A DNA stretch of 64,000 nucleotides from Microlunatus elymi (GTDB lineage: Bacteria > Actinomycetota > Actinomycetes > Propionibacteriales > Propionibacteriaceae), in the NCBI RefSeq assembly GCF_007362775.1, contig NZ_CP041692.1:4712001-4776000 (forward strand), read 5' to 3'. Positions 6,317 to 32,571 of the stretch are shown one piece after another. The stretch's first letter is position 1; the number at the start of each line of letters is the position of its first letter. Made by a program: the position numbers and the translations under genes. The notes beneath the pieces were generated by a model. The model was not told the origin of the DNA. It did not search any database and worked only from the letters and a program-made list of their open reading frames with translations.

Positions 6317-6335
6317 AGCGAGTACCTGTCCTTCA

Positions 6336-6453
6336 TCATCTTTCCCGGGCGACCTTCGCTCCGAGTCGGAGTTGGCACCGTGGCCGCCGACCGAACGTGG
6401 CGAGCTGGTTGCCGGGGGGTCATCGGGCCGAATCCCTCGCCCCCTCTGGATGA
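6336..6453 (-). promoter_or_regulatory. SAM-I (S-box) riboswitch upstream of thrC
   Basis: On the minus strand the leader reads TCATCCAGAGGGG, then GCGAGGGATTCGGCCCGATG, ACCCCCCGGCAACC, a P3 arm region, GGTGCCAACTCC, a P4 hairpin and GGGAAAGATGATGA. These are the conserved blocks of the SAM-I aptamer in the right order: the GAUGA/CCGGCAACC kink-turn side of P2, the GGUGCNAAUUCC-like J3/4 element and the closing GAUGA strand. TCATC (6449-6453) pairs with GATGA (6336-6340) as P1. The SD AAGGACAGG lies directly after P1, so control of translation initiation is likely; no terminator is visible. Binding of S-adenosylmethionine would repress the downstream genes. Confidence 0.9.
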
Positions 6454-6599
6454 GCTCTGCACAGCGTACGGGTCGGGCCCGGCCCAATACCTAATCGAGT
6501 CCCAGATTGCGGCCAGATCGACCACATAGTGAGATTCGCCGCGTAGAGCCGCCCCCGATGAACCAACGGACAGTCACGGACGAACAGTCAGGAGCGCAG

Positions 6600-28490: not shown

Positions 28491-29663
28491 CTACTGGCGG
28501 GCGCGTTCGAAGGCGGCGAGGGCGCGATCAAGATCATCGCGGGTGTGTGCGGCAGACATCTGGGTTCGGATCCGGGCCTTGCCGCGCGGCACCACCGGGT
28601 AGGAGAAGGCGCGGACGTAGATGCCGTCGGCCAGCAGCTTGTCGGCCATCTCGGCGGCCTTGACGGCATCGCCGATCATCACCGGCACGATCGCGTGGTC
28701 GGATTCGGGGATGTCGAAGCCTCGTTGGCCCATCTCCGCACGGAAGTACGCGGTGTTGTCACGCAACTGCTGCAGCAGTTCGCCGGAGGACTCGAGCAGA
28801 TCGATCGCGGCCACCGCGGCGGCCGCGATCGACGGCGCCAGCGAGTTGGAGAACAGGTACGGCCGCGAGCGCTGCCGCAACATCTCCACGATCTCGGCTC
28901 GGGCCGCGGTGTAGCCGCCACTCGCTCCACCCAGCGCCTTGCCCAGAGTGCCGGTGACGATGTCGATCTTGTCCTGCACCCCGAACAGCTCCGGGGTGCC
29001 GGCTCCGGACGGGCCGACGAAGCCGACGGCGTGTGAGTCGTCGACCATCACCAGCGCGTCGTACTGCTCGGCCAGCTCGACGATCTTGTCCAGCGGCGCG
29101 ACGTAGCCGTCCATCGAGAACACCCCGTCGGTGGCGATCAGCCGGTACCGCGCATCGGCTGCGCTTTCCAACTGGGCTTGAAGATCTGCCATGTCCCGGT
29201 TCTTGTAACGCAACCGCCGGGCCTTGCTCAGCCGGACCCCGTCGATGATGCTGGCATGGTTCAGCTCGTCGGAGATGATCGCGTCCTGATCGGTCAGCAG
29301 GGTCTCGAACAGACCGCCATTGGCGTCGAAACAGGACCCGTACAGGATCGCGTCGTCGGTGCGCAGGAAGCCGGCGATCTTGGCTTCCAACTGCTTGTGC
29401 AACGCAGTGGTGCCGCAGATGAATCTGACCGACGCCATCCCGAAACCCCAACGGTCCAAGGCTTCATGGGCTGCGGTGATCATCGCCGGGTGGTCGGCCA
29501 GTCCGAGATAGTTGTTGGCACACAGGTTGAGTACGGTCTCGCCGCCGACGCCGATCGAGGCCGACTGCGGGGTGTCGATCACCGCCTCTGCCTTGTACAG
29601 CCCCTCGGTCCGCAGCTGCTCGAGACCGGCCGCGAGCTGGTTCTTCATCGAGGTGTACATCAT
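28491..29663 (-). CDS. kbl: Glycine C-acetyltransferase (2-amino-3-ketobutyrate CoA ligase)
   Basis: 390 aa, starting at ATG 29663 that overlaps the tdh stop (ATGA). PLP fold-type I enzyme of the alpha-oxoamine synthase family: [41 protein letters not shown] and the PLP lysine in [17 protein letters not shown]. It splits 2-amino-3-oxobutanoate with CoA into glycine and acetyl-CoA, the second step of threonine degradation after Tdh. The coupled overlap with tdh ensures matched expression. Confidence 0.95.
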
Positions 29664-30688
29664 TTCTCCCAGTTCATGATCACTTTGCCGCCGTGGCCCG
29701 ACCGCGCGGTGGCGAACGCCTGCTCGTACTCGGTGTGATCGAACCGGTCGGTGATCACTCCGGAGATGTCCAGTCCACTCTGCAACAGCACCGACATCGC
29801 ATACCACGTCTCGAACATCTCCCGGCCGTAGATGCCCTTGATGGTCAGCATGTTCAGCACCACGGTGGCGAAGTCGATGCTGATCTCGTCCGACGGCAGC
29901 CCCAGCATCGCGATCCGGCCGCCGTGCGTCATCGAGGCGATCATGCCGCGCAGCGCCACCGGACTGCCGGACATCTCCAGCCCTACGTCGAATCCTTCCT
30001 TCATCCCGAGTTGATCATGGGCGTCCTGCAACGTCCGAGTACGCGGATTCAGAGCAAGATCAACACCGAGCCGGGAGGCCAACTCCAGCCGTTGATCACT
30101 GAGATCGGTGATCACCACGTTCCGGGCCCCGGCGTGGTGGGACACCATCGCGGCCAGGATGCCGATCGGGCCGGCGCCGGTGACCAGCACGTCCTCGCCG
30201 AGCATCGGGAAGGTCAGCGCGGTGTGCACGGCGTTGCCGAACGGGTCGAAGATCGCGGCCACGTCGAAACCGATCGGGTGCTCGTGCACCCACAGATTGC
30301 CCGACGGCATCGCGACGTACTCGGCGAACGCGCCATCGATCTGAACCCCGATGCCGCGGGTGTTGATACACAGGTGCCGTCGCCCGGCGCGGCAGTTGCG
30401 GCACCGCCCGCAGGTGAGATGGCCCTCGCCGCTGACGACGTCGCCGACCGACACGTCGGTCACCGACTCGCCGATCTCAACCACGACTCCGGAGAACTCG
30501 TGCCCGACCACCAGGGGCGCCCGCACATGGCTCGCCGCCCAGTCGTCCCACGCCTCGATGTGCAGATCGGTGCCGCAGATCCCGGTCTGCTTGACCTGCA
30601 CCAACGCCTCGCCGGGGCCGACCTGCGGAACGTCGACGTCGGTCAACTCCAGGCCGGGACCGGCCGTCCTCTTCACCAGCGCCTTCAC
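29660..30688 (-). CDS. tdh: L-threonine 3-dehydrogenase
   Basis: 342 aa from GTG 30688 ([15 protein letters not shown]), the normal length. Zinc-dependent medium-chain dehydrogenase: catalytic-zinc ligands in [10 protein letters not shown] and VGHEFSGVV, four-cysteine structural-zinc lobe [15 protein letters not shown], and NAD-binding [19 protein letters not shown]. It oxidises threonine to 2-amino-3-oxobutanoate for Kbl. Together with the divergent sdaA this gives a threonine-to-glycine-to-serine-to-pyruvate route. Confidence 0.95.
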
Positions 30689-30849
30689 ACCGCAGACCGT
30701 ACGGCATCGGGCGTCGGCGCGACGAGCCTGGCTAAACGATTGACCAACCTGTGAGCAACGCCTCACCGTGTCGGTGCTGGACCCGGGCGTTGCGAGCACA
30801 TAGAACTGGGGCCGTACGCGGGTTACCCCTTTCGCACAGGACTGCGTAC

Positions 30850-30979
30850 GCGCCCATGCCGGGTATGAGCCGGCATGGGCGCGGAATGCTCGTGAACACA
30901 ATCGCCCGCCGCTTGAGCGATATCGCAAGAATCCCGACGATATCCAGCAATCAGCGGGCGATGGTGTTCGCGAGGTTCC
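30850..30979. other. Two adjacent long hairpins between tdh and sdaA (candidate structured RNA or small palindromic element)
   Basis: Hairpin 1: GCGCCCATGCCGG (30850-30862) and CCGGCATGGGCGC (30870-30882), a perfect 13-bp stem with a 7-nt loop. Hairpin 2 begins at the next base: 30883-30909 pairs with 30954-30979 through GGAA, CTCG, GAACAC and ATCGCCCGC blocks, about 24 pairs with one bulge and one mismatch. It encloses 44 nt with an inner CTTG..CAAG hairpin containing GCGATATCGC. The element ends 54 nt before the sdaA start. No known riboswitch motif (glycine, SAM, ZTP) fits. The rest of the 345-bp gap shows only a weak GCAACGCC/GGCGTTGC pair. Confidence 0.7.
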
Positions 30980-31033
30980 CGCCTCGACACGATCACACTG
31001 CGGTTCTACGGCGACCGATGGAAGACTGACGGC

Positions 31034-32431
31034 GTGGTGAGTGTCTTCGATCTGTTGAGCATCGGCATCGGGCCGTCGAGTTCGCACACGGTCGGGCCGA
31101 TGCGCGCTGCGGGCCGGTTCGTTCGAGAACTCGCCGACTCCGACCAGCTGCATCGGGTCGATCGGGTGCAGGCACAGCTGTTCGGGTCCTTGGGCGCCAC
31201 CGGTCACGGGCATGGCAGCGAGAACGCGGTGTTGTGGGGGCTTGAGGGCGAGGATCCGGAATCGGTAGACACCGACACCGCTCCGGCCCGGGCCGAGAAG
31301 ATCCGCAGCACCCGTCGGATCCGCCTCGACGGCAGCCGCGAGATCGACTTCGATCCCGACGTCGACCTGGTGCTGCATCGCCGCAAGTCCCTGCCGTTCC
31401 ACCCCAACGGGATGACCTTCACCGCCTGGACCGGGCGCGCCGGCGAGCAGCCGCAACTCGTCACCGAACGCACCTACTACTCCATCGGCGGCGGTTTCGT
31501 GCTGGCAGACGACGGCTCCGGACAGCCCGAGCTGCGGCCCGATCCGACGCCAATGCCCTACCCGTTCCGGACGGCCGCGGAGTTGTTGGCGATCTGCGCC
31601 CGGGAAGGGCTGCGGATCAGCGACGTCGCACTGGCCAACGAGTGCGCTCGCCTGCCCGAGACCGAGATCCGGGCCGGGCTGCTGCGGATCTGGCGGGTGA
31701 TGGCCGACTGCGTACGGCACGGCTGCGACACTCCGGGCGTGCTGCCGGGCGGTCTGAAGGTACGCCGCCGCTCTCACGAGCTGCAGGAACAATTGCTCCG
31801 CACCGCCAGCACCGAGCGTCCGGTGAACGCCGATCCGCTGGCCGCGATGGACTGGGTGACGCTGTGGGCGCTGGCGGTGAACGAGGAGAACGCCGCCGGC
31901 GGCCGGGTCGTCACCGCGCCGACCAACGGAGCTGCCGGCATCATCCCGGCGGTGCTGCACTACGCCGTACGGTTCGTGCCCGGCACCGACGACGACGCAA
32001 TCGTCCGGTTCCTGCTGACGGCCGGTGCGATCGGCGCGATCTACCAGCAGACCGGTTCCATCTCCGGTGCCCAGGTGGGCTGCCAGGGCGAGGTCGGCAC
32101 CGCCTGCTCGATGGCCGCCGGGGCCCTGGCCGAGCTGCTCGGCGGCACCGTCGACCAGGTCGAGAACGCGGCCGAAATCGGCATGGAACACCACCTCGGG
32201 CTGACCTGCGATCCGGTCGGCGGACTGGTCCAGATCCCTTGTATAGAACGAAATGCGGTCGCCTCGGTGAAGGCGATCACCGCGGCTCGGCTGGCCCTGC
32301 ACGGCGACGGTCAGCACACCGTCAGCCTGGACAAGGTGATCAAGACCATGATGGAGACCGGCCGGGACATGAAGATCAAATACAAGGAGACCGCGCGCGG
32401 CGGGCTGGCCGTCAACATCGTCGAGTGCTGA
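31034..32431 (+). CDS. sdaA: L-serine ammonia-lyase (serine dehydratase), single chain
   Basis: 465 aa from GTG 31034 ([20 protein letters not shown]). Beta and alpha domains are fused as in E. coli SdaA. The iron-sulfur cysteines are visible in [25 protein letters not shown] and [28 protein letters not shown] is the conserved serine-binding loop. It converts serine to pyruvate and ammonia. It is divergent from tdh-kbl, with the 30850-30979 hairpins in between. Confidence 0.95.
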
Positions 32432-32489: not shown

Positions 32490-32571
32490 CGGCATGTAAA
32501 GCTTGCGCCACCAATTTCTGTTCCACTACGGATCGTCGGGCACGTACCTGCCCGTGGAGAGGAAGTGCGGC

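Follow-up and report, generated by a model that had tools for sequence, protein, structure and literature searches.

The 345 nt gap between tdh and sdaA in the genome of Microlunatus elymi holds a 14 bp perfect stem-loop, followed after a few bases by a longer palindrome that is imperfect. This arrangement raises the question of whether the two form a single structured element, and what such an element would do. We analysed a 64,000 nt stretch of DNA around the locus, referred to here as the window. The gap is flanked by genes for L-threonine 3-dehydrogenase on the minus strand and L-serine ammonia-lyase on the plus strand, with a glycine C-acetyltransferase gene past tdh. The features of the locus are as follows:

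29660..30688, minus strand: tdh, L-threonine 3-dehydrogenase (context; named by curated models)
30849..30883, plus strand: hairpin A, a terminator-like stem-loop with a 14 bp perfect stem (fold and covariation)
30888..30975, no strand assigned: element B, an inverted repeat of 80 bp (88 nt including short flanks), one of 26 copies (genome search and covariance model)
30888..30914, plus strand: left arm of B (alignment of copies)
30949..30975, minus strand: right arm of B (alignment of copies)
31034..32431, plus strand: sdaA, L-serine ammonia-lyase (context; named by curated models)

The first stem-loop is perfect, as originally predicted, and is 14 bp long (30849-30862 with 30870-30883, loop 30863-30869) rather than 13 bp at 30850-30882. 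The arms of the second hairpin extend over approximately 30881-30925 and 30938-30982, are 78% complementary and make an imperfect palindrome of about 88 bp; the distance of 54 nt given earlier between its end and the start of sdaA (31034) is correct. Two such hairpins are indeed far beyond chance in a gap of this size. The best perfect stem in the gap (loop of 3-10 nt) is 14 bp, against a maximum of 11 bp in 300 mononucleotide shuffles of the 345 nt, and the RNA fold of 30840-30990 has a z-score of -7.7, with 0/200 shuffles equally good. An alternative pairing of 30807-30819 with 30844-30856 would compete against the 5' half of hairpin A.

A search of the M. elymi genome yielded many matches, and the best of these covered the second palindrome alone. 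For the first hairpin there were short matches in congeners, several near sdaA. A and B were analysed separately, and they proved to be two unrelated elements lying side by side.

A covariance model found element B at no fewer than 26 places in the M. elymi genome, plus one weak match, a count that may be low because 150 of 7264 first-look candidates were scored. Each copy was matched on both strands, as the element is palindromic. An exact span of 88 nt, short flanks included, was seen in 22 of the 26 copies, and 15 aligned copies have a core, 80 bp long in 12 of them, in which the arms (GCGAACA-NAATCNCCCGC) are conserved and the middle is variable. The arm covariation score was 0.111, identical to that of shuffles (0.111), and the two arms of one copy were alike at 20.46 of 26 positions, compared with 20.04 for arms taken from different copies (p = 0.07). 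Since the arms do not covary, the conservation of B is at the DNA level rather than that of an RNA stem, and an RNA fold was ruled out for this element. The suggestion of a new structured RNA thus fails for the second hairpin, and that of a palindromic, MITE-like element holds for it, given its 26 scattered copies, and not for the first.

In 19 congeners we observed only weak matches to B, in G008, G004, G007 and G002 (best E 9e-5), so that B appears almost confined to the M. elymi genome. The G007 match looked unrelated by eye. G008 carries two diverged and slightly shorter relatives, whose arms are similar but reduced in length (G008:C1:4035018-4035094 and 5736456-5736534). Among the 18 of 26 copies whose flanks were examined there was no target duplication, in agreement with the earlier observation at this locus, and flank repeats were no longer than those between unrelated copies. 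Insertion into palindromes was not seen among these 18 copies, and a phage origin was discarded as no phage record matched. The gene contexts of the 18 copies were mixed, with all gene orientations represented, according to a simple gene caller that misread at least the sdaA locus. Among the arm matches listed in a search for an autonomous relative, two single-arm matches with one mismatch had no partner arm in the 8 kb around each. Two copies in the M. elymi genome, at G000:C1:2413287 and 2414471, lie 1.2 kb apart and flank a gene of 309 aa.

These features are consistent with B being a REP/MITE-like repeat that landed beside hairpin A in M. elymi, presumably by transposition. Like REP, MITE and Correia-type repeats, it is short, scattered and palindromic, with conserved arms. 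It differs from them in its nearly fixed length, in the lack of target duplication at the copies examined and in that the search yielded no autonomous relative; terminal inverted repeats and scattered copies are the MITE hallmarks that it does display. A competing possibility, which we consider unlikely though worth keeping in mind, is that B is not mobile and represents a fixed-length pair of inverted DNA-binding sites for a nucleoid or regulatory protein. The 88 nt span, the retention of the arms as sequence around a variable middle and the missing target duplications would all suit such sites, but BLAST similarity continues across the middle, every gene orientation occurs among the contexts examined, and the near-absence from congeners suggests spread by copying. 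It is very hard to credit that A and B together constitute one mobile palindromic element. Their separation of 3-5 bp speaks for this, but the hairpin-A model has just two hits in the M. elymi genome, the window copy and the hairpin of an RNA described below, against 26 for B. No second A+B unit was detected by that model, and congeners carry A without B at the same locus. The view of the two hairpins as one structure is thus replaced by one of separate histories and distributions, and the case illustrates how a recent repeat insertion immediately behind a conserved hairpin can mimic a joint element.

We compared 13 hairpins of type A (12 distinct) from M. elymi and nine congeners. The loop GTATGAG is constant and changes in the stem are compensated, with a stem covariation score of 0.547 compared with 0.223 for shuffles (0/500 as high; 12 distinct hairpins). 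It should be noted that the choice of these hairpins depended on their loop and on the presence of a stem, which builds in the loop constancy and part of the pairing of A. The orientation of the hairpin varies: CTCATAC reads towards sdaA in G006, G011 and G012, and GTATGAG does so in G000, G001, G009 and G015. Where G000 and G011 have flanking sequence in common, this is inverted together with the hairpin.

At many of the loci found in a wider search, the same hairpin forms one end of a conserved element of ~190 nt, which we call RNA1. A pattern that placed AGTATGAGT between two runs of six free bases matched at least 117 stretches in the named collection. Listed were 80 loci, among them loci from Nocardioides, Kribbella, Phycicoccus, Knoellia, Terrabacter, Janibacter, Micropruina, Tessaracoccus, Aeromicrobium, Nanopelagicales and Microlunatus parietis. 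These 80 loci contained 86 matches, 58 with all six free pairs and 23 with five (G-U allowed); at least five pairs were therefore present in 81/86, where chance would give ~3%. The three worst-paired matches were the non-actinobacterial ones, and no match was found in viral contigs. Because a strict hairpin pattern was found in just 2/296 genomes of a phylum-wide sample, M. elymi included, our description of the distribution rests on a class-level model search instead.

RNA1 was at one stage read with the hairpin first, an orientation that was dropped in view of a promoter-like TTGCGN-17/18-TAGAA sequence and a T-rich tail on the opposite strand. On the strand with loop CUCAUAC, a TTG-type hexamer lies 17 or 18 nt from TAGAA in 55/60 loci tested, the 60 being those of 113 hairpins with TAGAA at 140-230 nt and the spacing having been picked as the best fit among 15-20 nt. 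A T-rich stretch follows 3' of the terminator-like hairpin. A consensus fold built from 31 sequences comprises 61 pairs, of which 47 are changed on both sides, and its covariation score is 0.448 compared with 0.205 for shuffles (0/500 as high). One alignment served both to derive and to score this fold, but the choice of sequences did not depend on the inner helices. An internal loop-loop contact, GGUGACG with CGUCACC, contributes six counted pairs, with 99.5% of cells paired.

The RNA1 model matched 28/57 relatives at E 0.01, 10/20 genomes of the genus, and, with only a small number of candidates scored in each genome, 81/394 class-sampled genomes at E 0.001. Four of these 81 have a match that is restricted to the hairpin. 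Among 38 model-found loci that were fetched, the best match of 37 includes the CTCATAC hairpin. At the remaining locus, L317, the best match (1333-1505) has no such hairpin at its 3' end, and a second match ~160 nt away has one. M. elymi carries a single, full copy of RNA1 at C1:1571827-1572011 on the minus strand (L109:3828-4013), adjoining a LamB/YcsF-family gene; the model found no RNA1 body within the window. The ten RNA1-positive genomes of the genus are the same ten, out of 20, that have a strong solitary GTATGAG hairpin. As the hairpin-A model was built from these ten, presence in them is by construction, and the informative part of this overlap is that the other ten give no strong match; five of them give weak ones. 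Mapped onto an sdaA tree of poor resolution, the RNA1 label requires six changes, a number as low in 82/500 shuffles. In G009, G015 and G001, the sdaA loci (L080, L082 and L083) contain a further GTATGAG hairpin close to sdaA; the RNA1-model scores there are weak and derive mostly from the hairpin.

Comparison with Rfam 15 placed RNA1 below every gathering threshold, and 17 of the 80 listed loci gave only tRNA. When E-values were used instead, locus L172 matched BjrC68 over the 3' part of RNA1 at 24.1 bits (threshold 39, E 0.00046) and sodF_sRNA at 26.5 bits (threshold 46, E 0.042), with three weaker matches; L109 gave two weak matches only, to a human lncRNA region and an miRNA family. The neighbouring genes of RNA1 vary: 20 proteins from 16 loci included an acyltransferase at three loci, dehydrogenases at two and one protein without a family. 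In open-licence full texts, nothing among the matches listed could be linked to RNA1, RNA2 (the putative transcript of hairpin A, below) or B. Overall, the fold and its covariation provide strong support for RNA1 as an apparently undescribed structured RNA family. Few widely conserved structured RNAs are known to be peculiar to actinobacteria, and a strongly covarying 190 nt RNA in about one-fifth of the class genomes sampled, with no match in Rfam 15, is of interest for that reason.

One report (PMC9130861) describes candidates for Ms1 RNA in many of the same genera as RNA1, Microlunatus included. Like Ms1 RNA and 6S RNA as presented there, RNA1 is a stand-alone actinobacterial structured RNA, and it could overlap with the Ms1 candidates. 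Judged by neighbourhood and fold, such an overlap appears less likely: 0/20 neighbour proteins (16 loci) are HAD hydrolases, and the consensus fold, unlike that of Ms1 or 6S RNA, has several helices and the internal loop-loop contact.

Hairpin A itself looks to be part of a small transcription unit, as judged from the following plus-strand features:

30766..30773, plus strand: CCGTGTCG, box of the putative RNA2 promoter, 27 nt before TAGAAC
30801..30806, plus strand: TAGAAC, a -10-like hexamer (hexamer of a similar kind at the same spacing in 9/10 genus genomes)
30813..30887, plus strand: RNA2, a predicted short RNA, both ends placed from promoter-like sequence and the hairpin
30863..30869, plus strand: heptaloop GTATGAG, complementary to the RNA1 loop CUCAUAC (genus and wider hairpin comparison)

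On the GTATGAG strand, CGTGTCG occurs within 130 nt upstream of 31/185 distinct hairpins of all kinds at the loci examined, compared with 3/185 mirror flanks and a background of 0.02 per flank. By a simple rule, five of the 31 boxed hairpins are at loci classed as RNA1 hairpins. A hexamer (TAGAAC, TAGAAA, AAGACT, GAGACT, CAGACT or CACACT) stands 27 nt after the box in 9/10 genus genomes and 26 nt after it in G009. Alignment of 27 of the 31 boxed hairpins revealed that, beyond the seven selected bases, one G, one T, one C and two A's of the -10 are conserved; the -35 region is not conserved and the -10 hexamers are variable. The layout of box, spacer, hexamer and hairpin is also present in other genera. 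The 60 tested RNA1 hairpins showed no conserved box, only an A-rich stretch that corresponds to the RNA1 T tail, and a generic promoter and terminator scan of 30600-31100 found neither. The window copy of hairpin A is not followed by a T tract; a T-rich tail lies behind the hairpin in G011 and G012.

We then asked how often the two RNAs occur together in the class. The pattern CGTGTCGNTNC, 44-60 nt, GTATGAG matched 23/394 class genomes, 18 of which have RNA1, compared with three for the reversed pattern. When the stem had to be 8 bp or longer, the box was found in 13/81 RNA1 genomes and 1/313 others. The other 68 RNA1 genomes had no such RNA2 match, M. elymi among them, which this whole-genome pattern misses as the gap between its box and loop is longer than the pattern permits. 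Matches that bear a hairpin mostly have A/T-rich -10-like hexamers at 27 nt (for example TAGAAC, TATAAA and CAGAAT), and the others mostly do not. The hairpin behind the box is the terminator of RNA1 itself in 10 of the 13 genomes, so that the two RNAs share one hairpin; for this reason the class-wide co-occurrence is mostly not independent evidence. Separate hairpins alone (G417, G595 and G049) gave 3/81 compared with 1/313 (p = 0.03), and the addition of G674 and G545, which have interrupted stems, gave 5/81 (p = 0.002), with relatedness left in here as in every other count. The distance between RNA1 and RNA2 is ~103 kb in G049 and ~125 kb in G595. A promoter-like box aimed at the RNA1 terminator would yield an antisense RNA.

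The reading that best explains the locus as a whole, to which we give about an even chance, is that hairpin A belongs to a small RNA gene, RNA2, a probable trans partner of RNA1, with a B repeat adjacent. The RNA2 gene would extend on the plus strand from 30766 to ~30887 and comprise a promoter box, a -10 hexamer, a short leader and a strong stem-loop with loop GUAUGAG. Its partner RNA1, encoded elsewhere in the same genome, has a terminator loop, CUCAUAC, that is perfectly complementary (7/7), a figure that applies to these two loci of M. elymi and not to the class as a rate, the loop having been part of the search. First touch between RNA1 and RNA2 would be a 7 bp kissing contact, and the pairing would control the level or activity of RNA1. 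Transcription of both RNAs, pairing of their loops and the resulting regulation of RNA1 we infer from sequence. Element B would have landed 3-5 bp past hairpin A, at the position of the T-rich tail in G011 and G012, and may have altered how RNA2 ends in M. elymi. RNA1 and its possible matching mini-RNA offer a concrete, testable regulatory pair in soil bacteria.

Plasmid antisense pairs such as RNAI/RNAII and CopA/CopT start to interact by kissing loops. The proposed pair resembles them in consisting of two RNAs with complementary hairpin loops, and, in the 10/13 class genomes where the RNA2 box faces RNA1's own terminator, in having a true antisense layout. Unlike the plasmid pairs, RNA1 and RNA2 are chromosomal and spread over a class, and in Microlunatus they are encoded at separate places, have different stems and are complementary in the 7 nt loop alone. 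More tentatively, and at somewhat worse than an even chance, we suggest that the Actinomycetes possess, across the class, a chromosomal two-RNA system made up of RNA1 and RNA2. RNA1, with its loop-loop contact and activator-like phased upstream boxes, would be opposed by a hairpin-only antagonist, RNA2, with a box-controlled promoter. Its starting point may have been an antisense pair whose members had a single terminator hairpin in common, with a later split into a trans pair in Microlunatus and a few other genomes of the same order (G049 and G595) that kept only the 7 nt loop complementary.

Two other accounts of hairpin A need to be weighed against the small RNA gene. The more serious, though in our view rather improbable, is that the hairpin is just a terminator-like stem-loop, its common loop explained by one loop-binding protein or termination factor and not by RNA-RNA pairing. 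Like intrinsic terminators, it has a GC-rich perfect stem, and many RNA1 and some RNA2 loci have a T-rich tail; in G005, G008, G033 and (by eye) G011, solitary hairpins are found a short way downstream of genes, and what stays constant in the two hairpin types is the loop. Intrinsic terminators differ in that the loop here is a constant 7 nt and the window copy lacks a T tract. A protein of this kind would also have to accept complementary loops, CUCAUAC on the RNA1 strand and GUAUGAG in RNA2. Moreover, a 464 kb sample of the M. elymi genome, window included, contains no other such loop on a perfect stem of at least 9 bp, on which count a general terminator class of GTATGAG hairpins was rejected. 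The idea originally put forward, a cis-acting ligand-sensing leader of sdaA or tdh, now seems highly improbable. It draws on the hairpin being close to sdaA in 9/10 RNA1-bearing genomes of the genus (~1.5 kb away in G008), but its strand relative to sdaA differs among congeners, so that strand and position are not conserved together, and it is located away from sdaA in G005 as well as in other genera. Ten genus genomes are without a strong hairpin match, and nine of these have an sdaA match. Within the window, only tRNA, SAM and msiK reach Rfam thresholds, with no aptamer at the hairpins. What survives of the original prediction for hairpin A is the spirit of a new structured RNA: its stem changes are compensated and its loop is common with a 190 nt RNA family.

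Further minor observations concern the surroundings of these elements. The window contains a SAM riboswitch at 6333-6456 on the minus strand and an msiK RNA at 32510-32566 on the plus strand, both exceeding Rfam thresholds. Upstream of the RNA1 promoters, many loci have TGTGGA/TCCACA boxes ~21 bp apart, equivalent to two helical turns. Such phased boxes, for example at L161, L164, L189 and L194, are often near 53, 74, 95 and 117 bp before the -35. We take these boxes to resemble DnaA-box cores or activator sites, and one idea is that the phased TCCACA boxes might serve as a DnaA-titration locus.
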